Notes under the pieces: generated by a model | Seen by the model: the letters and a program-made list of their open reading frames with translations, nothing else | What the model was told of the DNA's origin: nothing | The model's database searches: none | Virus record (IMG/VR): IMGVR_UViG_3300027668_000102 | Location: 1 to 23,705 of that record | Reading direction: 5' to 3' (one strand) | Length of the DNA: 23,705 bases | DNA from: a virus | Translations under genes and position numbers: made by a program | Shown: positions 4,207-22,844 of the stretch, piece after piece | Layout: each line of letters opens with the position of its first letter | Position numbering within the stretch: position 1 is the first letter of the stretch

Positions 4207-6310
4207 TGTTGTTACCTCCTGTAGGTTTCATAGCTGCGGTAGCCATTTTAACTGCTGCCGCGGTGTCACTTTGATTCTTACGCATATCGTTAGTAAGCGA
4301 AGAAAGTTTTTCACGTAAATCGAGCTCTTCTCGTTTAGTCTGTATCTTACTCTGTAATTCAGCAACCTTCAACTGTGGATCCTGTTCGGCTGCTTGTGTC
4401 TTAGCAACATTGAGTGCTGATTCGGTTTGAAGTCTAGTTACTTCAGCTTCTAGCTTAGCTATCTCAAGCTGCGTACTTCTGATTTGTGATTCCATTTGGA
4501 ACTGTTGTAATTGTATTTGTTCTTCTGTTGGAGGAGCTGTTCCTTCCTGTTGTCTAATTCTTTGAGCCACATCTGCCTTACGTGAAAGATGTGAATACTC
4601 TACTATTAAGTCATTAGGTATTGGAACGCCTGCGCTACGTAAAGCAATAGCTTCAGCAAACTGCATCTCATCAAAGTTATCTCTAGCAGGAGCTGTTCCT
4701 ATTATTACATCATACTCGCCCAAAGTAAGGTCATTTATAACTTCCCCTTCTGGTGTCATTTGATTTACTGCCAATGGAACTCTAGGTTTGTATGGGTCTG
4801 ATTCATCTGTTATTTGTAATACTCTTTCTTCTGTGTAATAAGCCTGAACCAAATTTAAAATTTTCTCTGCTAGGTATTGCCTAGTTTTTTGTAAATGATC
4901 TAAAGGAACTTGTATCATCAATGTTCCTCTGTTTTGTTTTGCCTGTATAGCAACGCCTGAAACTTCTGCGCTATCTGTGCCCAACATAGAATCTGATATA
5001 CCACTAATTGCTTTTATATTGTTTGCGGCTTTTTGCCCTATTCTATCTAACCCGGTTGGTATTTGATTAGGTTGTATTTTTGAAGGTGGAGTTGAACCCC
5101 TGTTGTACTCTAGTACTAACCCTGTTTGGGCTCCGTGTTCTTCTAAATCATCTGCTGTCATACCAGACAGCGATCCGCCCTCTACTACCCAACCGCTGTT
5201 GGCAGTTGTGTTAACTATATGTAGTTCTTGCGAAGTAATTTTGTTTAGTTGTTCTTGTGGTGATAGTAGGTTACGAACCATTCCAAAAGGTTTCCCTCTT
5301 CTAAAATATGGGAAGTAAGGCACCAATGTAAAATGATCATAAGGAGACCAGTCATCAAACAATACAACTGTGTCGGCTGTTACAGTCCAACGTACCTTTC
5401 GCATTTTTTTCTCTACTATGTCAAGGCCATACTGATCTGCAAATTGTTCTCTCTTTCTTTTGCTCCAGTTATATGGAACCTGTCGTTGGTCGCCTGTTAC
5501 AGGATCTACATAAAACGTGCAATCTTTTAATCTGTAGTATTGTCTTTCTATAACTCTAATAGATCTAAGTGCGCGGGCATTATCAGGGTCCCCTGGGTAA
5601 TCTTGTCCGTACTCATTTTCGTCTAGATCCCCATACCTTTCTTCTTCGTACTCCATAGAGTCCGCGCCTAAGGTACTGCCCATCTCGGCTATCATTCTTA
5701 ACTTGTCTGCTTGTTTTTGGTCGTACAGTTCTTCTATCTCATCTAAACTCATCCACTTGCTTTCAAATATCTCGTTCCAAGTTTTTGGGTCGTAATCTTT
5801 GGCTGAAGGATCTATGAGAATATCTAAAGGGTCTTTGGCTGTTACTCTTACTTCTCCATTTACGTGATCCGCAAAATCTATACGTACGTCGAACCATCCC
5901 CTATCTTGAATAAGTCCATCAGAAAAAACTGACGACTCTAACCAGTCCAACTTGTTGTTGTCTGCTATTTGTCTGTATACTTTAGTTAGGACGTCGGCTA
6001 TGTCTTGTTTGCCGCCACCCCTTGGTTTGAATTCTACATCTGCTCTTCTTTGACTTTGCTCACCGAGCACTGCATTAATAGTAGGAAGAATAGTATTTAC
6101 AGTTAGAGCTGGTCGCCCTTGATCATCCAACACGCTCATGTCGGCTTCATCCCATTGGTCGCCCCTGTAAAAAGCGTCGCATTTTTTGGCCATGTCTATA
6201 TAGTCATCATGCCCGTTATCTCTAGCTCTTGTATAAGAGTTCCATTGTTGTTTGGCTAGTGTAAGTTCTTCACCTTTTGATAGATTCTTTTTTACTTTCT
6301 TATATGCCAT
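4199..6310 (-). CDS. Portal protein, P22-like
   Basis: The 703-residue protein is the dodecameric DNA gate at one capsid vertex. The N-terminal region (about 20-60, WNSYTRARDNGHDDYIDMAK then FYRGDQWD) and the RPALTVNTILPTINAVLGEQ segment (about 67-86) are typical of P22-type portals. So are VRVTAKDPLDILIDPSAKDY and the GISDSMLGTDSAEVSGVAIQ segment in the second half. The C-terminus (about 580-690) is a long Gln/Glu-rich helical region like the barrel of P22 portals. Length matches the family (about 700). The start shares one nucleotide with the terminase large-subunit stop (TAATG), implying coupled translation. The ribosome site is weak, which fits re-initiation. Confidence 0.92.
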   Translation of the reverse strand: MAYKKVKKNLSKGEELTLAKQQWNSYTRARDNGHDDYIDMAKKCDAFYRGDQWDEADMSVLDDQGRPALTVNTILPTINAVLGEQSQRRADVEFKPRGGGKQDIADVLTKVYRQIADNNKLDWLESSVFSDGLIQDRGWFDVRIDFADHVNGEVRVTAKDPLDILIDPSAKDYDPKTWNEIFESKWMSLDEIEELYDQKQADKLRMIAEMGSTLGADSMEYEEERYGDLDENEYGQDYPGDPDNARALRSIRVIERQYYRLKDCTFYVDPVTGDQRQVPYNWSKRKREQFADQYGLDIVEKKMRKVRWTVTADTVVLFDDWSPYDHFTLVPYFPYFRRGKPFGMVRNLLSPQEQLNKITSQELHIVNTTANSGWVVEGGSLSGMTADDLEEHGAQTGLVLEYNRGSTPPSKIQPNQIPTGLDRIGQKAANNIKAISGISDSMLGTDSAEVSGVAIQAKQNRGTLMIQVPLDHLQKTRQYLAEKILNLVQAYYTEERVLQITDESDPYKPRVPLAVNQMTPEGEVINDLTLGEYDVIIGTAPARDNFDEMQFAEAIALRSAGVPIPNDLIVEYSHLSRKADVAQRIRQQEGTAPPTEEQIQLQQFQMESQIRSTQLEIAKLEAEVTRLQTESALNVAKTQAAEQDPQLKVAELQSKIQTKREELDLREKLSSLTNDMRKNQSDTAAAVKMATAAMKPTGGNNNG

Positions 6311-8716: not shown

Positions 8717-9196
8717 TTAGTATTTCTCTTTGTTTGTCACTATATTTTTACACCACCAATATAATTCGTCTTCTGGTAGGGTGTGTTTTATTAGATTTAC
8801 ACGGTGACAAACTAGCTGAACGTTGACAATTGTATAGGGTCCTTGGGGATCTATTCTATCTAAAGAGACATTTAGATCTCGCTTATCTCCTCCTTTATGC
8901 CATGTCATATATAAACCGGTGGTGGCACATAGTCCTTCTTGTTGATCCCATAATGATGATACTTGGTCCACGGTCAACGTCCATTTGATACCTTCTTTCT
9001 TACGGGAGTATTTTAATTGGCTATGTAGATTTTTGAGATAATATTTTGGGTCGGCACTTCTGGCTTTGTTAATTTTGTCCATGTGACACGTTTTACAAAC
9101 AGTTCTCGTGTACTCATTTCCAGCAGTTGTTTTTCGTTTTTCAAACTCTTTTATGGGGAGTTTTACCTGGCATCTTTTACAGGTCTTGTTCGACAT
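8717..9196 (-). CDS. HNH endonuclease with N-terminal zinc knuckle
   Basis: The 159-residue protein has an N-terminal CKRC (6-9) and CKTC (34-37) zinc-binding knuckle. Its C-terminal HNH-like nuclease contains C80, the SLDRID motif at 101-106, the GPYTIVNVQLVC segment ending at C120, and N124 with K127 (HRVNLIK). This DRID...N...LVC...N..K pattern is a familiar phage HNH subtype. HNH enzymes next to terminases often assist DNA packaging in tailed phages, and that is the likely role here. A free-standing homing nuclease is the alternative. It is the first gene of the minus-strand block and lies beside the divergent control region. No ribosome site is visible. Confidence 0.85.
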   Translation of the reverse strand: MSNKTCKRCQVKLPIKEFEKRKTTAGNEYTRTVCKTCHMDKINKARSADPKYYLKNLHSQLKYSRKKEGIKWTLTVDQVSSLWDQQEGLCATTGLYMTWHKGGDKRDLNVSLDRIDPQGPYTIVNVQLVCHRVNLIKHTLPEDELYWWCKNIVTNKEKY

Positions 9197-9284
9197 AAAA
9201 ATTTAAAATAATTTTTTTATGAAAAATACTATACCATATCGCCCTCGCATCTTCTCCCCTCCCGTTCTCAGAGTAGCCCCTCCC

Positions 9285-9318
9285 CCTTTTTCCGTTTTCC
9301 ATATACCTTTTTCCGTTT
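9285..9318. repeat. 13-bp direct repeat spaced 21 bp apart
   Basis: CCTTTTTCCGTTT occurs at 9285-9297 and 9306-9318. The start-to-start distance of 21 bp is two helical turns, so both copies face the same side of the DNA. It lies within the polypyrimidine tract of the divergent spacer. A binding site for a dimeric regulator is plausible. Confidence 0.7.
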
Positions 9319-9376
9319 CGACCATTGGAACCTTGTTTTGATTTTTATCAGATCTTGACTCGCAGACTCGTCGCTA

Positions 9377-9431
9377 GGTCAGTCGGCCATGAGCCAAGGC
9401 TCATTGACCGTTGTTCTTGTATAAGTATATT
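9377..9431 (+). promoter_or_regulatory. Early rightward promoter overlapping a hairpin/operator
   Basis: A -35-like TTGACC (9404-9409) and a -10-like TATATT (9426-9431) are 16 bp apart and lead to the first rightward gene at 9460. The perfect inverted repeat ATGAGCC-AA-GGCTCAT (9389-9404) ends on the first base of the -35. It is flanked by GGTCA (9377-9381) and TGACC (9405-9409), which extend the symmetry. This looks like a repressible sigma70-type promoter with an operator over the -35. The transcript start would be near 9438. Confidence 0.6.
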
Positions 9432-9459
9432 AATTATACGTACTAGGAGTACATAGAAC

Positions 9460-9705
9460 ATGAAAATATTAAATACAACTACCAGACTAACAGGTAGAGC
9501 AACAGGCGCAAGTGTTAGAACAATGGGTACTATTATCAACATCATAACAGCTAAGGCTACACCAAGACTCAATGCTATCGCTAAAGAATTCATGGCAGGC
9601 TACGAAGGACAGCAAACTAAGTTCACTGTCGAGCAATGGCAACAGATCCAAGAGGTACAAGATATGAACAAGGTATCACCTAGGCAAGCAGAACTAAACA
9701 TATGA
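9460..9705 (+). CDS. Unknown 81-aa early protein
   Basis: I do not recognise this protein. It is the first rightward gene, with an AGGAG site 10 nt upstream and a good promoter just before that. The N-terminal half is basic and hydroxyl-rich (TTTRLTGRATGASVRT). The C-terminal half is helical and polar (FTVEQWQQIQEVQDMNK). There is no membrane segment or known motif. Early small phage proteins in this position often modify host functions, but nothing here shows a target. The stop overlaps the next start by ATGA, so the two are probably co-translated. Confidence 0.72.
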   Translation: MKILNTTTRLTGRATGASVRTMGTIINIITAKATPRLNAIAKEFMAGYEGQQTKFTVEQWQQIQEVQDMNKVSPRQAELNI

Positions 9706-9899
9706 GTAAGATAATATCTAACGCACTAACACTAACTATATTCACAGTATCGTTAGTGTTATTCACAGTCTTGACATTAGACTTCATAAACTACCAAGGA
9801 CAGCAATCACTATTCGAGATGGCGCTTTGGTTATTGTTTGGGTTCATAACTTTAGGATTCGGTAAGATTATTGTACTACTCAATACAACGATTCATTAA
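9702..9899 (+). CDS. Small membrane protein, two predicted helices
   Basis: The 65-residue product has two hydrophobic segments, about residues 8-27 (ALTLTIFTVSLVLFTVLTLD) and 40-60 (MALWLLFGFITLGFGKIIVL). They are joined by a polar loop containing YQGQQSLFE, so it should sit in the inner membrane as a hairpin. The start overlaps the upstream stop by ATGA, and there is no clear ribosome site of its own. Size and topology match holins and also superinfection-exclusion proteins; the early position favours the latter or an unknown membrane role. No family is recognised. Confidence 0.68.
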   Translation: MSKIISNALTLTIFTVSLVLFTVLTLDFINYQGQQSLFEMALWLLFGFITLGFGKIIVLLNTTIH

Positions 9900-9905
9900 C
9901 AATAT

Positions 9906-9921
9906 AGGGGCTTCGGTCCCT
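9906..9921 (+). terminator. Stable C(UUCG)G tetraloop hairpin after the membrane gene
   Basis: AGGGGC-TTCG-GTCCCT forms a 6-bp stem (one G-U pair) closed by the very stable UUCG tetraloop, 6 nt after the stop codon. There is no following U-run, so it may act as an mRNA 3' end stabiliser or Rho-assisted stop rather than a classical intrinsic terminator. Confidence 0.55.
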
Positions 9922-9935
9922 ACACCTATGTCCTT

Positions 9936-9966
9936 ACTATCATCAACTACTATCATTACTATCATC
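9936..9966. repeat. Three direct ACTATCAT repeats
   Basis: ACTATCAT occurs at 9936, 9949 and 9958; the first and third copies continue with C. Spacings are 13 and 9 bp. The group is immediately followed by a CATCGAT (9963-9969) / ATCGATG (9985-9991) inverted repeat. It lies at the left edge of the gene-free region that also holds the TGGAACC array. Confidence 0.7.
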
Positions 9967-10018
9967 GATTGCGTGCGTGCATGCATCGATGTGCGTGGTC
10001 ACTACGCAATGTTCCATC

Positions 10019-10311
10019 GGTTCCACGGCTTTTCCCCAAGTGGAACCAACTAATGGAACCATGCTTATCCTATTATCTATATAGGTTTGCATGCGTTTAG
10101 ACCACGAATGGTTCCACGGTTCCACGTCAGGAGAGTTGTACACTTACAAATCGACCGTGGACCGTTGTTATAGGATATCTTTTCTTTAACATAATTTTAA
10201 TGGAACCAATGGAACCAAGACCAATGTCTTCGTACAACCCGCATTCCTATGCTATTCCCACGGTTCCACGACTTTCACATTTAGGTGGAACCAAGTGGAA
10301 CCAGTGGAACC
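10019..10311. repeat. Iteron-like array of eleven TGGAACC motifs; candidate replication origin
   Basis: Direct-orientation TGGAACC starts at 10041, 10054, 10201, 10210, 10286, 10296 and 10305. Reverse-orientation GGTTCCA starts at 10019, 10110, 10118 and 10262. One more copy lies upstream at 9326. Most extend to GTGGAACCA, and neighbouring copies are often 8-10 bp apart. The array fills most of the 9900-10405 gap, the largest gene-free stretch in the window. Such clustered sites fit an initiator or regulator binding array. Between clusters is AT-rich DNA (10165-10200) that could be an unwinding element. Whether it is an origin or a promoter control site is not shown by sequence alone. Confidence 0.75.
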
Positions 10312-10332
10312 AAGCTCGGATAAGACACAAGA

Positions 10333-10384
10333 CGTCGCAAGCCAAGGCATAGCGACGATGTTTTTATGTAGGTGTATTAATTAT
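10333..10384 (+). promoter_or_regulatory. Hairpin plus AT-rich leader upstream of the 75-aa gene
   Basis: CGTCGC (10333-10338) pairs with GCGACG (10352-10357), with an inner GCC-AA-GGC pair, and is followed by ATGTTTTTATG. It therefore resembles a terminator or attenuator. Just after it comes TATTAATTAT (10375-10384), the same 10-mer found at 9428-9437 at nearly the same distance from the first gene's start (31 against 32 nt). This may be a shared -10/leader element. Confidence 0.5.
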
Positions 10385-10405
10385 CTTTACCTTAGGAGGT
10401 ACAAC

Positions 10406-10633
10406 ATGGATATAGGATTAAACAACGAAGGGAACGCTAACCCACAAGATAGCATGGTGGCATTGACAGAAGAAATAGCATCATTGCAAAGTCTAATAGA
10501 TATGGCACATGAGAGATACTGGAGACCATCAGGCGCTCCAATATTTAACAACAAGAACGAATACACAGCTTACGTATGTAGGTTGGAGTTATCAATCAAA
10601 GACTTAGAAACACAGATATGGTCATCATGTTGA
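10406..10633 (+). CDS. Unknown 75-aa early protein
   Basis: I do not recognise this protein. The ATG at 10406 is chosen because a strong AGGAGGT site lies 6 nt before it; an in-frame ATG further upstream lacks one and would read through the repeat array and hairpin. The product is soluble and acidic, with a predicted helix SMVALTEEIASLQSLIDMAH followed by a Trp/Tyr/Pro patch (RYWRPSGAPIF) and a second helix (LELSIKDLETQIW). This resembles small helical-hairpin phage early proteins, without a recognised family. Confidence 0.75.
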   Translation: MDIGLNNEGNANPQDSMVALTEEIASLQSLIDMAHERYWRPSGAPIFNNKNEYTAYVCRLELSIKDLETQIWSSC

Positions 10634-12105: not shown

Positions 12106-13128
12106 ATGCATTCAATTAGTCCAAACAACCTTGTATTAGAAATCAAATCTAATATGAGAGCAGAACTTAATACAATGATATGGGGCGGACCAGGTATTGG
12201 TAAGTCAGACATACCACAACAAGTAGCCGATGATCTTAATATGACACTATTAGATTTTCGTGCTAATTTGTTTGATCCCGTAGATGTGCGTGGCATACCA
12301 CACATACGACAGGTCAAAGAGTCCGGCAAAAGATTTACATCATGGGCCACACCAGATGTATTTCCAATCGTAGAACGTGACGGCGAACGTGGACTTTTGT
12401 TCATTGACGAATTACCTACTGCACCACCAGCAACACAAAATGCATTCTTGCAGTTGTTGCTAACCAGACAGGTTGGCGACTACAAAATGCCTCCCGGCTG
12501 GTCTATCGTTAGTGCAGGTAATAGACTAACTGACTCCGCAGCTGTATATCAGATGCCTAGCCCAGTTAGAAACAGACTAGCGCATTACGAACTAGAACCA
12601 ACACTCGATGACTGGGTAGAATGGGCTTTCAAAAATAACATAGACCCATCAGTCATTGCGTTTATACAATACAGACCTAACTTGCTTAACGCATTTAATG
12701 CAGATGAGTATGCCTTTGCTACTCCAAGATCCTGGTCGTTTGTAAGTAAAAAGCTTAGCGTTTACACAGATGATGTGTCAGAAGAATTAATATTCTATGG
12801 CGTATCAGCACTAGTAGGCGACGGCGCAGCTGGTGAGTTTGTAGCATTCAAACAAATAGCCGACAAGCTACCAGATATAGACGCTATTATAGCTGACCCA
12901 AATCTCTACAAGAAAGATGACAACCCAGCCTTGTTGTACGCACTAGCCAACGCATTAGCGTCTAGAGCTACAGAAGACAAGATGGAAAACATCCTCAAAG
13001 TCACTAAAAAGATGCCTATCGAATTTCAAGTTGTCCTTGTCAAAGGATGTCTTGCAAAAGATAAGAGTCTTAAAACCCAAAACGATCTACGTAAATGGAT
13101 CGTAGATAACGCAAACGTAATAATATAA
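12106..13128 (+). CDS. MoxR-type AAA+ ATPase
   Basis: The 340-residue ATPase carries Walker A GGPGIGKS at 27-34, Walker B LLFIDEL at 97-103 with the catalytic acids D101/E102, and sensor-1 N139 in SAGNR. The PVRNRLAHYEL segment just after is typical of the MoxR/RavA group, and the DPVDVRGIPH segment at about 57-66 also recalls MoxR proteins. MoxR ATPases act as chaperones with a VWA-domain partner to remodel or load cofactors into target complexes. A VWA protein is encoded three genes downstream in the same operon, a classical pairing. It starts with AGGAGG a few bases upstream and heads the operon after a terminator. The target is unknown. Confidence 0.9.
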   Translation: MHSISPNNLVLEIKSNMRAELNTMIWGGPGIGKSDIPQQVADDLNMTLLDFRANLFDPVDVRGIPHIRQVKESGKRFTSWATPDVFPIVERDGERGLLFIDELPTAPPATQNAFLQLLLTRQVGDYKMPPGWSIVSAGNRLTDSAAVYQMPSPVRNRLAHYELEPTLDDWVEWAFKNNIDPSVIAFIQYRPNLLNAFNADEYAFATPRSWSFVSKKLSVYTDDVSEELIFYGVSALVGDGAAGEFVAFKQIADKLPDIDAIIADPNLYKKDDNPALLYALANALASRATEDKMENILKVTKKMPIEFQVVLVKGCLAKDKSLKTQNDLRKWIVDNANVII

Positions 13129-13138
13129 GGAGTACATT

Positions 13139-13819
13139 ATGTCTACAGTAAGATTATCAGATAAGTTGTTATACGATATAAGCAAAAATGCTTACAAGAA
13201 ATTTGACAACATTAACCCAGAGAAAACCTACGCAGAAGGATTGGGAGACCGTATAGTGCAAGAGTTCGATTTAGTATCTAAAGCTAACAAAGCATTAGCG
13301 TCTGTCAATTCTATACTAGAAGGTGTGCATGAACAAAAAATGTACAGCTACAATCAAATAGAACTTAACGCAGTAGAAGAATACGAAGACGAAGACGATG
13401 ATTACAACAGAGGCAAACGTCATTCGTATACATTGCCGTTAACAACAATGCAACAGGCGCCTGGTTTCTTATGTAAACAAAGATACAGCGATACCGGTTA
13501 TATAAAAATAACAGTGCCGTTCAGCAATCCAATACTTGCAGAATGTATAGCTATAGCAAAGCACAACGACGATCTTAGGATCAAAAGACGAGAGTTCGAA
13601 AGAAATCTTATGTCTACGCTAGCTAATTTTACTACCTTAAATCAAGCACTTAAGGCTACTGACGGTGCGATTTCAGATCTAGTACCTCAAGAATACCTAG
13701 ATAAATCACAGAAGAAAGAGGATCGTAAAGCTCGTCAAATAGAACTAGCTCAGATAGCAACTGACGAACTAAAAGATCTTAAAGAAATATTATTAACTGA
13801 CTCATTATTAGGAGATTAA
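13139..13819 (+). CDS. Nmad5-like protein, paralogue A
   Basis: The 226-residue protein begins MSTVRLSDKLLYDISKNAYK, has an acidic middle (EYEDEDDDYNRG), and ends with a helical region. That region holds LANFTTLNQALKATDGAISD, LVPQEYLDK and the terminal LLTDSLLGD. The same plan recurs in the 280-residue protein at 16312, so these are paralogues. The N-terminal helix and the TTLxxxL...VP pattern recall the Nmad5 domain (putative nucleotide-modification-associated) as I remember it. This is a tentative match without a search. The gene sits between the MoxR ATPase and further small genes. Its LLGD codons also supply the AGGAG site of the next gene. Confidence 0.72.
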   Translation: MSTVRLSDKLLYDISKNAYKKFDNINPEKTYAEGLGDRIVQEFDLVSKANKALASVNSILEGVHEQKMYSYNQIELNAVEEYEDEDDDYNRGKRHSYTLPLTTMQQAPGFLCKQRYSDTGYIKITVPFSNPILAECIAIAKHNDDLRIKRREFERNLMSTLANFTTLNQALKATDGAISDLVPQEYLDKSQKKEDRKARQIELAQIATDELKDLKEILLTDSLLGD

Positions 13820-14038: not shown

Positions 14039-14475
14039 ACAGAATAATAAAAAACGGATTCAAATTGCCTGCAACTAACAGGAGCGTACAATACTCAGAA
14101 GTATTAACAGTTATTGATCCATCTAATAAACATCACCCTTACTTTACAATATACAACCCAATGCCTATTTCTTTAGAACTAGGAGCTGTGTTTAAACTAC
14201 GGTTTTGTGGTGGCGAAGGCGGATTTATAGTAAATGAAATAGGTATAGATACAAAACAAAACCCTTACATAAAAGGGTGCAGATGGTTTGGCATTAATCA
14301 ACCTATACACAAAAGAACTTGGGGCAAAAACCCCATGTTAAAACTTCATCTTTCAGAAATAACTGATTGGAACGGCGAATATAAACCTATAGAACTTCAT
14401 GCTTTAGAAAAACTACAACGGTTTAGCAGAATCTTATCAGCTCCGGCTGTACAACATTTGGAATCAAAAATATGA
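14035..14475 (+). CDS. Unknown 146-aa protein
   Basis: I choose the ATG at 14035 because it overlaps the previous stop as ATGA and has a GGAG site 6-7 nt upstream; a start at 14023 would place the ribosome site inside the gene. The product is beta-rich with aromatic residues (HPYFTIYNPMPISLELGAVF, then FKLRFCGGEGGFIVNEIG) and ends in a helical ELHALEKLQRFSRIL. No family is recognised. A single-domain beta-barrel is possible. It directly precedes the VWA/metallopeptidase gene with another overlapping ATGA, so the two are likely produced together, perhaps as partners. Confidence 0.74.
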   Translation: MNRIIKNGFKLPATNRSVQYSEVLTVIDPSNKHHPYFTIYNPMPISLELGAVFKLRFCGGEGGFIVNEIGIDTKQNPYIKGCRWFGINQPIHKRTWGKNPMLKLHLSEITDWNGEYKPIELHALEKLQRFSRILSAPAVQHLESKI

Positions 14476-15575
14476 ATAACGAATTATTTACAAAAGCAAG
14501 ATCTAGACTTGTACTAGACAACCCTTTCTTCGGCACCCTGTGCTTACGCTTAAAACCTGTTGAGCGTGACGACATAGATACCGGTGCTGTAGACGGTGTT
14601 AATCTGTTCTACAATCCTAAATGGTTTGCAAAACAAGGACCTCTAGAACGCGTTGGCTTTTTGGCTCACGAAGTTATGCACGTAGTACTGCTACACATAA
14701 CTCGTAGAGGCGAACGCCATCCAAAGAAATGGAACGTAGCAGCAGATTACGCTATCAATAATCACCTAATCAAAGAAGGTTTCTTCTTGCCTAAAGGTGG
14801 TCTTCTTGACTCTAAGTACGATGACATGTCCACCGATGCTATATACAACATGCTACCTGAACCTCCTCAAGGTTGGGATGGTGTATCAGATGACTCTGGT
14901 GGATGTGGCGGCGTGCTCGATCACCCAACAGCTAACACTGCAGAATCGACCGGGGCTATAGAAGCGGCACTAAATGTCGCTATCAACCAAGCTGCAGAAG
15001 CAGCCAAAGCCCAAGGTAAATTGTCTGGCAATCTAGCTTCTTTAGTATGCGACATAACAGAAGCTAAAGTCGATTGGCGAGCTGTGCTTGGCAGATTCTT
15101 ACGAGCCAATAACAAATCAGACTTTACATGGCAACGTCCTAACAGACGATTCATAGCGCAAGGCATGTACTTGCCGTCTATGCACAACCCATGCTTAGAA
15201 GAGATTGCTATTGTCCACGATTCATCTGGCTCAGTAAGCGAAAATGAGTTGTCTCAGTTTCTTACAGAAACCTCATTTATACTGCATGAGCTCAACCCAG
15301 AAAAAGTACATCTAATACAATGCGATACCGAAGTTACTAGCGATGTCGAGTACACAAGAGAAGCATTGCCTTTACAAGTAGAATACAAAGGACGTGGCGG
15401 GACTATGTTTAGTCCAGCTATAGACTATGTAAACAAAACCCATCCAAACGTGGCCGCACTTATATATCTTACAGATTTAGAATGTGACGACTTTGGAGAT
15501 AAACCCAGTTATCCAGTTCTTTGGATAACTACACAACCAGGAGAAGCCCCTTATGGAGAAGTCATCAAAATGTAA
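14472..15575 (+). CDS. Metallopeptidase-like / VWA-domain protein (DUF2201-type)
   Basis: The 367-residue protein has two domains. The N-terminal half carries a zinc-binding HEVMH motif at 66-70 and a nearby AADYAIN (D92 is a possible third ligand), typical of the putative metallopeptidase domain of DUF2201 proteins. The C-terminal half is a VWA-like domain with metal-site residues DSSGS at 250-254, T311 in GGT, and D335 in LTDLE. The VWA domain is the usual partner of MoxR ATPases, and that ATPase heads the operon. Similar AAA+/VWA pairs occur in N4-like phages, as I recall. Protease activity is plausible but not assured, since many relatives are uncharacterised. Confidence 0.88.
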   Translation: MNNELFTKARSRLVLDNPFFGTLCLRLKPVERDDIDTGAVDGVNLFYNPKWFAKQGPLERVGFLAHEVMHVVLLHITRRGERHPKKWNVAADYAINNHLIKEGFFLPKGGLLDSKYDDMSTDAIYNMLPEPPQGWDGVSDDSGGCGGVLDHPTANTAESTGAIEAALNVAINQAAEAAKAQGKLSGNLASLVCDITEAKVDWRAVLGRFLRANNKSDFTWQRPNRRFIAQGMYLPSMHNPCLEEIAIVHDSSGSVSENELSQFLTETSFILHELNPEKVHLIQCDTEVTSDVEYTREALPLQVEYKGRGGTMFSPAIDYVNKTHPNVAALIYLTDLECDDFGDKPSYPVLWITTQPGEAPYGEVIKM

Positions 15576-18413: not shown

Positions 18414-20210
18414 ATGCAAAAGATATACTTAGATTTTGAAACTTACTACGACGTACAAGTTTCCCTGACAAAAATGTCTACTGTACAATACGTCAATCAC
18501 CCAGACTTTAAAGTGTGGGGCGTAGGTATAAAAGTAGACGAAGGCGATACGGAATGGTTTAACGAAGAAGAAACACCTGACATACTTGCACAAATAGATT
18601 GGGATAACTCAGCTATTGTATGCCACAACACTTTGTTTGACGCTTACATACTAACTCAATACTTTGGCCATAGACCAGCATACTACTACGACACCGCAGC
18701 TCTTAGCCGTGGTTTGTACCCAAATATGTCAGCAAGACTTAAAGATGTAGCTGTGCGGTTGTTTCCAAATGACGCTGCTATGCGTAAGGGCGACGAGCTT
18801 GTAAACGCTAAAGGCGTACAAGATTTAGATCCAGAGCTTGACGCACAAATAGGAGGCTATTGTATTCAAGATGTAGATTTAACTTATGCATTGTTTTGGA
18901 AAATGTCGGTAGGCTACCCGCAATCAGAATTTGATCTTATTGACCTCACAGTCAGAATGTTTGTAGAACCAAAACTAATACTCGACCGTGGACGGTTGAC
19001 CACATACAAAGAAGAAATATCTAAAAACACTGCTGAAGCTATACAAAATAGTGGTACTACAAGAGAAGTACTTGCTAGCCAACAAAAGTTTAAGTTGCAC
19101 TTAGAAAATTTAGGCATTACTGTACCGACAAAGAAAAGTCCTACAACAGGCCAAAAAATACCAGCGTTTGGCAAAAGCGATGCTGCGTACACACAACTTT
19201 GCCAAGCATACCCTGAGTACGAACACATATGGAAAGCTAGAGAAGCAGTAAAATCGCGAGTAGAAGAAACAAGAGCAGAAAGGTTCTTAGAATCTGTTAA
19301 TCCAGACGGTACATTTTCTGTGCCTTTACGGTATTACGCAGCCCACACAGGCAGGTTCGGTGGTTCTGATAAAATAAATATACAGAACTTACCTAGGGGA
19401 TCTACTTTGCGTACTGCAATCATGGCACCCGAAGGACAAAAACTATTCATATCAGATTTATCAAACATAGAAGCTAGGATGTTAGCGTGGATGGCTAAAG
19501 AACACGATTTAGTACAAGCATTTGCTACAGGCAGAGATGTTTATTGCGAATTTGCTAGTCAAATATACGGTCGTACAATTACAAAGAAAGATAAATTAGA
19601 AAGGTACGTAGGCAAAACTGCCATCTTAGGATTAGGATACGGTATGGGTGCAGAACGATTTAAACTTACATTAAAAACAGGCTCTCCATCTGTAGACATA
19701 ACAGAACATACTGCACAAGCAATTGTTGCTCAGTACCGAGGCATGTACCCAAACATACCAAAACTCTGGTCAGGTATGAAGGACAGCTTGTTTCAAATGA
19801 TTAACCCTAGAAGTGTAGGTATGAAATACGGTCCTTTATCTATAGAATCGCGAGCTTTAAAATTACCTAATGGTATGTGCTTAAGCTATCCAAATCTTTC
19901 GTACGAACACGGTAACTTTATATATAAAACAGAAAGAGAAGTTATTCGTACGCATGGCCCAAGAATAACAGAAAACGTCATACAAGCATTAGCACGTATA
20001 GTTATCACAGATCAAATGTTAGACATACAAAAAATGCCTCAAGTAGATATTGTTATGCAAATACACGATGAAATAATAGCTATTGGATCAAATCAAGATG
20101 CAGAACAGACAATGGCCCAAATAATTGATATCATGAGAACTCCCCCATCTTGGTGTAGTGATCTACCTCTTGATGCTGAAGGTGGAGCAAGCCAAGTTTA
20201 TGACAAATAA
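18414..20210 (+). CDS. Family A DNA polymerase with 3'-5' exonuclease
   Basis: The 598-residue replicative polymerase has an N-terminal proofreading exonuclease: Exo I DFE at 7-9, Exo II N72/D76 in HNTLFD, and Exo III Y149...D153 in YCIQD. The polymerase domain follows: HTGRFGG at 311-317, INIQNLPR at 321-328, motif A DLSNIEAR at 348-355, motif B from R397/K401 to Y409, and motif C QIHDEI at 549-554. No 5'-3' exonuclease is present, and the short length is usual for phage enzymes. In motif B the residue equivalent to E. coli Phe762 is Leu405 (KTAILGLGYG). The start has AAGGAGG 5 nt upstream. Confidence 0.96.
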   Translation: MQKIYLDFETYYDVQVSLTKMSTVQYVNHPDFKVWGVGIKVDEGDTEWFNEEETPDILAQIDWDNSAIVCHNTLFDAYILTQYFGHRPAYYYDTAALSRGLYPNMSARLKDVAVRLFPNDAAMRKGDELVNAKGVQDLDPELDAQIGGYCIQDVDLTYALFWKMSVGYPQSEFDLIDLTVRMFVEPKLILDRGRLTTYKEEISKNTAEAIQNSGTTREVLASQQKFKLHLENLGITVPTKKSPTTGQKIPAFGKSDAAYTQLCQAYPEYEHIWKAREAVKSRVEETRAERFLESVNPDGTFSVPLRYYAAHTGRFGGSDKINIQNLPRGSTLRTAIMAPEGQKLFISDLSNIEARMLAWMAKEHDLVQAFATGRDVYCEFASQIYGRTITKKDKLERYVGKTAILGLGYGMGAERFKLTLKTGSPSVDITEHTAQAIVAQYRGMYPNIPKLWSGMKDSLFQMINPRSVGMKYGPLSIESRALKLPNGMCLSYPNLSYEHGNFIYKTEREVIRTHGPRITENVIQALARIVITDQMLDIQKMPQVDIVMQIHDEIIAIGSNQDAEQTMAQIIDIMRTPPSWCSDLPLDAEGGASQVYDK

Positions 20211-20394
20211 AAATTTAATATTAACTAGAAAACAAGGAAACAAAATCATCATCCACGATGGTGATAACGTTTTATGTACTCTTACGGTCGTAGCCCTGGG
20301 ATCTGGGCAATGTAAGTTAGGCTTCCAAGCTGACGCTAACATTAGAATAGATAGAGAAGAAATATATAAAACAAAACTATTAGAGGAGGAATAA
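20200..20394 (+). CDS. csrA: CsrA-family RNA-binding regulator
   Basis: I choose the ATG at 20200 because the protein then begins at the canonical CsrA position (MTNKNLILTRKQGNKIII). The 64-residue product keeps the hallmark residues: L8 and R10 (L4 and R6 in E. coli CsrA) in LILTR, the G-rich turn before the third strand, and R52 in IDREEIY (R44 in E. coli). CsrA dimers bind GGA-containing mRNA leaders and block or alter translation. The gene overlaps the polymerase stop by 11 nt and is followed by TAATG with the primase gene, so it belongs to the replication operon. Likely targets are host or phage mRNAs; which is not shown. Confidence 0.88.
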   Translation: MTNKNLILTRKQGNKIIIHDGDNVLCTLTVVALGSGQCKLGFQADANIRIDREEIYKTKLLEEE

Positions 20395-22844
20395 TGGAAG
20401 TAATATTTTTACAAGGAAAGAAACCGTTATGCAAAGAAATAAGTGATCAAGGTACTAAACCTTATCCATTAGCTAAAAACTTTACATCACACCATCACGA
20501 GGTTAACCCTGACCAAAAAGGTCTTAATCAATTTTACAAATTACTAACTAAGTATGCAGACCAAGGGTTTTGTTTACATAAAGGGGCGTTAAAACAACCC
20601 TTACAAGATGAGCCCAGAGCATTCATGTCTGACCGTAACGCATCTACTCAACTACTTGTATTAGATATAGATGGACTGCCTTACAAGAGCAGTAACGTTG
20701 GCATAGCCACTATTGCAGAAATGATAATCCTACAGTTACCTGACATCTTCCATGATGTAAGTTACGTAGCACAAGCTAGCGCATCGCTTGGCTTTAAGAA
20801 AGACAAGTTATCTTTACACTTATTCTTTTTTATGGACATGCCAGTACATCCTAAAACACTAAAAGATTGGTTGCGTATGGTAAATTACGACAGTGATTTC
20901 TTAGCAGAACAAATAGGACTGTCAGCTAATGGTCAAAGTTTATCTTACATAGTTGATCCATCTGTAGCAGACAACAGCAAATTAATATACATTGCCCCAC
21001 CTACATTCAAGAACGTACAAGATCCTCTTCCTGACGGCAGGTTTGTAAAGATCGACCGTGGTTCGGCGACCTTAGAAATATCTAGATCATTACTGACCGT
21101 TAACCCAGAACGTACTCATTCATTAGGCTTAAAAATTAAAGATAATCTTAGAGTCAAAATGAACTTACCTAAAAAAGCAGGTAAAGTAGCAACTGTTAAT
21201 GTATCAGGTGACATAGAAGAAGTTTTACAGAACCCAGATAAAATGACTATACAAGTAGCTCGGGTAGCAGAACCTTACGTAAACTGTAATATAAACAATG
21301 GCGACAGCGGAGGTTATTACTTTTTATTAACTAACCCTCATTATATGTTTAACTTTAAAGGCGAACCTATATGGGAAATAGAAAAAGCAGATGCAGATTT
21401 CTACAAAAGTATATTTGAAATCTTTGCAGATCAAATAGATTCAGAAGAAAAGAAAAAACCAATAGCGTTACGTGACTTCTATACAGATACTTATTACAAC
21501 GGAATATATGATGAATCATTACAACAATTCAGCGACAGCTATCCCCTTACTCCAACAACTAAAAATTCTATTAACGATTTTATGCGGTCTCATGGCAGGC
21601 CTAATATGGATTACGTTCCTGACGCTAGGGTTGTCTTTGATCCTAGTAACGACAAAGGCGTACAACTGGACGAAGTTCCCTACTACGTAAACTTGTTTCG
21701 TCGTACAGAATACATGTTAGCAGCTAACGAAAATGTAAAAGAATTAGAATATGGAACAGCAATAGAAATGCAAAAGATTGCGCCTAATTTTTACAAATTA
21801 TTAATGCACGTACTTGGAGATGGCAAACCAGAGTTTGAACACTTTGTTAATTGGTTAGCGTACATATATCAAAACAAACGCAAAGCAATGACCGCGTGGA
21901 TATTTACAGGCATACCTGGTACAGGTAAAGGATTATTTATACACAAAATACTTAAACCTTTATTTGGTGATGCACAAACTCCTATGAGAGCTTTAGAAAA
22001 TATAGAAGAACAATTTAACTTATACATGAGAACAGCATTGTTCTTAGTAGTTGATGAGTTCCGTATGGCAGATTCAGGCAATGCAGGGCGTATGGCCGAT
22101 AAGCTTAAACATCAAATTACAGAACCTACTCTTACAGTTCGTGCGATGCGTACAAACCAAATAGAGCTGCCATCTTTTACAAACTTCTTATTCCTTACAA
22201 ACAGAGGAGACGCAGTTAAAATAGAAGATAGCGACAGACGGTACAACGTAGGACCTCGACAAGAAGTTAAGATAGACATAGCTCACCCAGAGCTAATAGA
22301 AAATTTAGATTCATTAGATGCAGAGTTGTATATTATTGCAGGCGTATTAAAAAAGTTTAAAGTAAACGAACGTATGGCACACACCGCATTAGAAAACGAT
22401 GCTAAAAAAGAAATGAAACAAATATCTATGTCAGTCTTAGAAGAATTTGCTAACGCTATACGAACTAGAAATTTAGATTACTTTACAGAAATACTAGACA
22501 TACCACTTACAAACACTTTTGACGCCGGCGGTATAGGTACTGCACAGAGATACTTAAAAGATTGGGTTGCTACTGTAGGCCAAGAAACGGTTATACCATT
22601 AGCGCACTTTAAAATTGTGTACGATGCTTTAACAGACAGTCGTAACAAACTTTCTACAAGAGACTTTGCAAAGGCTATGTCAAGATTAAACATACATACA
22701 GCACGTAAACGTATAAGTAAAGACAGAACTGCAAGCGTCCCAAGAGGGGTTGTAATGACATGGAAATTAGATAATACTATTCGAGAAGATTTAATTAAGG
22801 AACATTTTGAAGAACGAGATCTTCAGCTTATTAACAATCAATAA
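20394..22844 (+). CDS. Primase-helicase fusion (AEP primase plus SF3-type helicase)
   Basis: The 816-residue protein joins two activities. The N-terminal third resembles an archaeo-eukaryotic-type primase: LLVLDIDG at 87-94 with D91/D93, H142 in LSLHLFFF, and D178 in YIVDPS. The C-terminal half is a DUF5906-like helicase with Walker A GIPGTGKG at 496-503, Walker B VVDEF at 542-546, sensor N593 in FLTN, and R605/R606 in SDRRYNV as a likely arginine finger. It should prime and unwind DNA for the adjacent polymerase. It starts with AGGAGG in a TAATG overlap with csrA. All motifs appear intact. Confidence 0.9.
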   Translation: MEVIFLQGKKPLCKEISDQGTKPYPLAKNFTSHHHEVNPDQKGLNQFYKLLTKYADQGFCLHKGALKQPLQDEPRAFMSDRNASTQLLVLDIDGLPYKSSNVGIATIAEMIILQLPDIFHDVSYVAQASASLGFKKDKLSLHLFFFMDMPVHPKTLKDWLRMVNYDSDFLAEQIGLSANGQSLSYIVDPSVADNSKLIYIAPPTFKNVQDPLPDGRFVKIDRGSATLEISRSLLTVNPERTHSLGLKIKDNLRVKMNLPKKAGKVATVNVSGDIEEVLQNPDKMTIQVARVAEPYVNCNINNGDSGGYYFLLTNPHYMFNFKGEPIWEIEKADADFYKSIFEIFADQIDSEEKKKPIALRDFYTDTYYNGIYDESLQQFSDSYPLTPTTKNSINDFMRSHGRPNMDYVPDARVVFDPSNDKGVQLDEVPYYVNLFRRTEYMLAANENVKELEYGTAIEMQKIAPNFYKLLMHVLGDGKPEFEHFVNWLAYIYQNKRKAMTAWIFTGIPGTGKGLFIHKILKPLFGDAQTPMRALENIEEQFNLYMRTALFLVVDEFRMADSGNAGRMADKLKHQITEPTLTVRAMRTNQIELPSFTNFLFLTNRGDAVKIEDSDRRYNVGPRQEVKIDIAHPELIENLDSLDAELYIIAGVLKKFKVNERMAHTALENDAKKEMKQISMSVLEEFANAIRTRNLDYFTEILDIPLTNTFDAGGIGTAQRYLKDWVATVGQETVIPLAHFKIVYDALTDSRNKLSTRDFAKAMSRLNIHTARKRISKDRTASVPRGVVMTWKLDNTIREDLIKEHFEERDLQLINNQ

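Follow-up and report, generated by a model that had tools for sequence, protein, structure and literature searches.

We analysed a 23.7-kb IMG/VR fragment of a marine bacteriophage (the window, to which all coordinates refer), which carries a dense array of the 7-bp word TGGAACC. The array is probably the replication origin of the phage, organised much like the origins of phage-inducible chromosomal islands (PICI) and Staphylococcus aureus pathogenicity islands (SaPI), and its iterons are likely bound by the C-terminal domain of a primase-superfamily 3 (SF3) helicase of the same phage. A sequence-only reading of the window had offered an initiator-bound origin or a multi-site operator, and of these the origin is favoured because members of the D5-type primase-helicase family have short-repeat arrays beside their genes.

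Layout and conservation of the array

The exact word occurs 11 times in 10019-10311 (293 bp), seven times on the plus and four times on the minus strand, as had been counted from the sequence. The densest 293 bp in 200 simulated windows held at most two copies of it, and the maximum for any 7-mer in 30 simulations was five. A comparable density was found nowhere else in the window or in the genomes of relatives. Further exact copies stand at 9326 and 5474, with 1.5 expected for the entire window. The one at 9326 had been proposed as a twelfth copy; it is present, but it is isolated and falls outside the array layout, while the copy at 5474 and a variant site at 10010-10016 had been overlooked. 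The variant, TGTTCCA (TGGAACA on the minus strand), is one base off and is the twelfth member of the array, so that the site pattern becomes 6 + 6.

The two halves are near mirror images (Table 1). In each, the two innermost sites are 8-9 bp apart; a gap of 52-56 bp follows, and farther out come one or two opposite-sense sites, a distance of 22-24 bp and two or three outer sites. The right part of the spacer between the halves is AT-rich, reaching 78% AT at 10171-10210, and from its composition the spacer is probably the melting region.

Table 1. Positions of the array sites, of conserved elements in and beside the array, and of the proposed initiator
Feature	Position	Strand	Basis
Near-invariant 11-mer ACTACTATCAT beside array	9946..9956	+	one or two copies by most arrays retrieved, though iterons vary
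Iteron 1, variant TGGAACA	10010..10016	-	one mismatch to class motif; conserved slot of 12-site layout
Iteron 2	10019..10025	-	exact TGGAACC
Iteron 3	10041..10047	+	exact TGGAACC
Iteron 4	10054..10060	+	exact TGGAACC
Iteron 5	10110..10116	-	exact TGGAACC
Iteron 6	10118..10124	-	exact TGGAACC
Central spacer	10125..10200	.	76 bp, 64% AT (composition)
Conserved spacer element GACCGTGGACCGTTGTT	10153..10169	+	alignment of 23 arrays; relatives have AACAACGGTCGACGGTCG, other strand
Iteron 7	10201..10207	+	exact TGGAACC
Iteron 8	10210..10216	+	exact TGGAACC
Iteron 9	10262..10268	-	exact TGGAACC
Iteron 10	10286..10292	+	exact TGGAACC
Iteron 11	10296..10302	+	exact TGGAACC
Iteron 12	10305..10311	+	exact TGGAACC
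Primase-SF3 helicase, DUF5906/D5 type, proposed initiator	20394..22844	+	816 aa; Pfam DUF5906 1.3e-17
Helicase C-terminal domain, residues 731-800, proposed iteron reader	22584..22793	+	divergence between genomes G008 and G005

Relatives were gathered by terminase and MoxR searches, which gave 94 loci. Wherever the sequence upstream of a terminase locus extended for 3.7 kb or more, the array was found at the same place (29 of 29), and over all 41 loci having an array its start lies 1.6-3.7 kb from the gene of the large terminase subunit (TerL). The words were obtained by de novo counting and fall into four classes by lineage, TGGAACC, TGGAACA, TGTAACA and TGGTACA (with TGTACC forms), with which further complete or long genomes are consistent. 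Essentially one word is used per array, spacing and orientation are nearly constant, and most of 51 arrays keep the 6 + 6 layout or nearly so, with 66-92 bp between the inner sites. Position is thus conserved while the sequence drifts coherently, a pattern that the sequence-only reading had named as a check. Since all twelve sites switch together and the geometry is kept, a single protein would be expected to read them all.

Cumulative GC skew, named as another check, reaches its minimum, after detrending, no more than about 1.5 kb from the array in eight family genomes or fragments. DnaA boxes (TTWTNCACA) number three in the window against 3.2 expected, with none in the array, and a DnaA-dependent origin was rejected on these counts. 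As a separate case, a phage-like contig of 60.8 kb binned into a bacterial metagenome-assembled genome (L227, Neomarinimicrobiota) encodes a 71% identical helicase and has a mixed TGGAACA/TGGAACC cluster near its position 1392.

The primase-helicase and possibly related origins

The helicase domain of the 816-aa protein is DUF5906/VapE-like, and its invariant DxD and SxH residues (D91, D93 and H142) are presumably the archaeo-eukaryotic primase motifs. The sequence profile matches the C-terminal region of the NrS-1 primase (PDB 6k9c/6k9e, 3.5e-45). A structure model predicted from a 38-sequence alignment, good at residues 1-250 and about 440-670 and poor in the C-terminal domain, retrieved the same NrS-1 region first in Foldseek (2.6e-19), followed by poxvirus D5/E5, African swine fever virus PrimPol and SaPI5 PriRep, the last as a complex with double-stranded DNA. 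The C-terminal region of the NrS-1 primase assembles into a hexameric ring (PMC7102993).

Behind the homologous genes of other elements stand repeats of short motifs, accompanied by AT-rich stretches. In NrS-1, the primase gene (gp28) is followed after about 10 bp by AAGTGTAACC repeats; within them is TAACCAAA, complementary to TTTGGTTA, the sequence known to be recognised by the primase. Repeats also lie directly behind the gene in phage KT1 (TAACCA) and in plasmid pMP1 (TGGAAA). The NrS-1 word resembles the present one (TGTAACC and TGGAACC), but its array has no 6 + 6 layout, and NrS-1 has an integrase gene. Pseudomonas phage KPP25 (Kochitakasuvirus; NC_024123; L101, L124), whose helicase (30%), TerL (42%) and polymerase are homologous to those of the window, carries TGTTACG/TGTCACG arrays, each surrounding an AT-rich core, at 26394-26824 and 58257-58541. 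These lie 31.9 kb apart on a 64.1-kb genome, almost opposite on the map, and share the core sequence. The one paper checked on a related phage makes no mention of an origin. In Stenotrophomonas phage DLP4 (L230, 16278-16907), the noncoding stretch behind the homologous primase gene shows, by eye, CTTAGA/TCTAAG-like repeats and an AT-rich part.

The closest organisation is that of the PICI/SaPI pri-rep origins (SaPIbov1, SaPI5 and EcCICFT073). There the initiator is likewise a primase joined to a D5/SF3-type helicase, its C-terminal domain is the known or proposed iteron reader, and two iteron sets always surround an AT-rich region (PMC6092414), which the six sites on either side of the present spacer and its AT peak resemble; in the SaPI/Cch2 relatives iteron reading is done by the helicase itself. 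The array is nevertheless set apart from PICI origins because its host is an autonomous phage and because the initiator gene is about 10 kb away; here, too, four iteron words occur within one phage family. The fragment is not itself a PICI, a satellite that takes its capsids from a helper phage: its TerL, portal-like and capsid-like genes, on the minus strand, are homologous to those of KPP25, and it has its own terminase. In a lambda-type origin the O iterons lie inside gene O beside an AT-rich region. The present iterons also adjoin such a region, but no O-like gene was seen in the window, and the array is intergenic, of mixed orientation and made of 7-bp sites.

From these likenesses we infer a sequence of events in which the helicase C-terminal domain would bind the six iterons on each side of the spacer, probably with one hexamer per half, as the number of sites would fit. 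The two hexamers would then melt the spacer and load onto opposite strands, and bidirectional replication would begin, with primers for the family A DNA polymerase (gene at 18414-20210) made by the N-terminal primase-type domain or by host enzymes. It is also conceivable, if doubtful, that the iterons double as docking sites for the double hexamer and, once the strands part, as favoured priming sites for the N-terminal primase domain. The suggestion comes from analogy with the NrS-1 polymerase, which prefers GTGG/GTGA and TTTGGTTA, beside which the iteron here reads GTGGAACC; in that case the words for docking and for priming would have to switch jointly throughout the family.

The assignment of the reader comes chiefly from two related genomes, G008 (TGGAACC) and G005 (TGTAACA). 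Their helicases are 89% identical over residues 1-730 and 63% over residues 731-800 (Fisher p 1.3e-7, for a region selected after looking); in residues 731-800 the G005 protein is similar to that of G015, a genome with the TGTAACA word as well, and RLNITTAVKRI and a shortened loop are among the shared features. The word and the C-terminal domain thus apparently change together between related phages. A pairing of residue 778 (R/K) with the last base of the word was dropped since the T class breaks the match. A 256-aa gene beside the array was also rejected as reader, as G002 has an array and no homologue of the gene near it.

Several observations weigh against an origin read by the helicase or temper its support. 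The spacer, at 64% AT, is barely above the window average of 61%. A PICI origin lies immediately 3' of its rep gene, whereas the sites here (10010-10311) are far upstream of theirs. The two KPP25 arrays are not 6 + 6, the numbers of sites per side being different, and in the sequence examined no array was recognised in Aeromonas phage phiA008 or in two relatives at 41% (L228 and L229). Gene orientation also switches near the array and can itself produce the GC-skew minimum. Other proteins of the G008/G005 pair diverge too (HNH-like 21%, 226-aa protein g226 46%, scaffold-like 48%), for which reason the co-change is to be taken as support and not as proof. In permutation tests the whole-protein association with word class was largest for the small terminase subunit (TerS; z 5.5), probably by linkage, and was z 3.6 for the helicase; a permutation scan along the whole helicase gave no segment above z 2.4, and the C-terminal claim is therefore based mainly on the G008/G005 pair.

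The alternative that survives best, with a small chance of being right, keeps the array as an origin and has the iterons read by a separate initiator which recruits the primase-helicase. Lambda O and the plasmid Rep proteins are initiators of this kind, and a candidate exists in the fast-evolving g226 (13139-13819), present in 31 of the 36 genomes examined. Yet KPP25 has arrays with no detectable homologue of g226, and both the self-reading SaPI/Cch2 helicases and the changed C-terminal domain of the G008/G005 pair speak for the helicase itself.

Surroundings of the array and other roles

The widest interval between credible genes (9899-10406) is where the array sits, in agreement with the sequence-only reading, which had also rightly placed it near divergent transcription. 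The divergence point (9196-9460) lies to the left of the array, with two small rightward genes in between. Late genes run leftward from about 9.2 kb (HNH-like, TerS, TerL, portal and capsid, on the minus strand), and early genes rightward from 9.46 kb (MoxR, a VWA metallopeptidase-like protein, family A polymerase, CsrA, primase-helicase and a PD-(D/E)XK nuclease). The family is related to KPP25 and phiA008, with TerL identities of 42% and 50% and a helicase identity of 30%. The nearness of the two divergent gene blocks would suit a multi-site operator through which a phage regulator controls early and late genes. This is improbable: two small genes separate the array from the divergence, the neighbouring small genes are not kept in relatives, a search inside the array gave no sigma-70-like promoter, and an origin is what twelve sites about a fixed spacer resemble.

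Slightly less probable still is a packaging (pac) site to which TerS would bind. The TerS gene is only about 1.3 kb from the array, TerS has the largest class association (above), and in NrS-1 and DLP4 the stretch following the primase gene likewise lies ahead of TerS. TerS is, however, 95% identical between G008 and G005 in spite of their different words, and its helix-turn-helix is nearly unchanged across classes, which excluded it as word reader; the second KPP25 array, 32 kb from the first, is far from the terminase genes, and plasmid pMP1 has repeats with no annotated terminase. Short repeats can also act as partition or recombination sites, but none of the window proteins searched was recognised as a partition gene product, and in a functionless repeat spacing and orientation would not persist while the word changes coherently, so these readings can practically be set aside.

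Some further features accompany the array. The 11-mer ACTACTATCAT is on the same side in aligned arrays and adjoins a short inverted repeat that differs in sequence from one relative to another. Hairpins flank the array at 9905-9922 (TAGGGGCTTCGGTCCCTA) and at 10333-10365 (CGTCGC..GCGACG, then TTTTT); they could insulate it from transcription, and neither scored as a terminator. The array region showed no DNA similarity to known phages, and no Rfam match and no tRNAs were found. A CsrA-family gene (20200-20394, Pfam 1.3e-11) lies directly upstream of the primase-helicase gene and is kept in relatives, and a MoxR-type ATPase (12106-13128) and a DUF2201 VWA/metallopeptidase (14472-15575) form a pair conserved throughout the family.

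Significance for the phage family

The array would represent a PICI/SaPI-like origin organisation in an autonomous phage family (about 57-64 kb), and one separated from its initiator gene. Members of the family form a natural series across which all twelve sites change their word in concert, and in close pairs such as G008 and G005 the change in the initiator can be localised. How origin specificity evolves and whether one hexamer serves each half thereby become directly testable, with KPP25 as a cultured relative.
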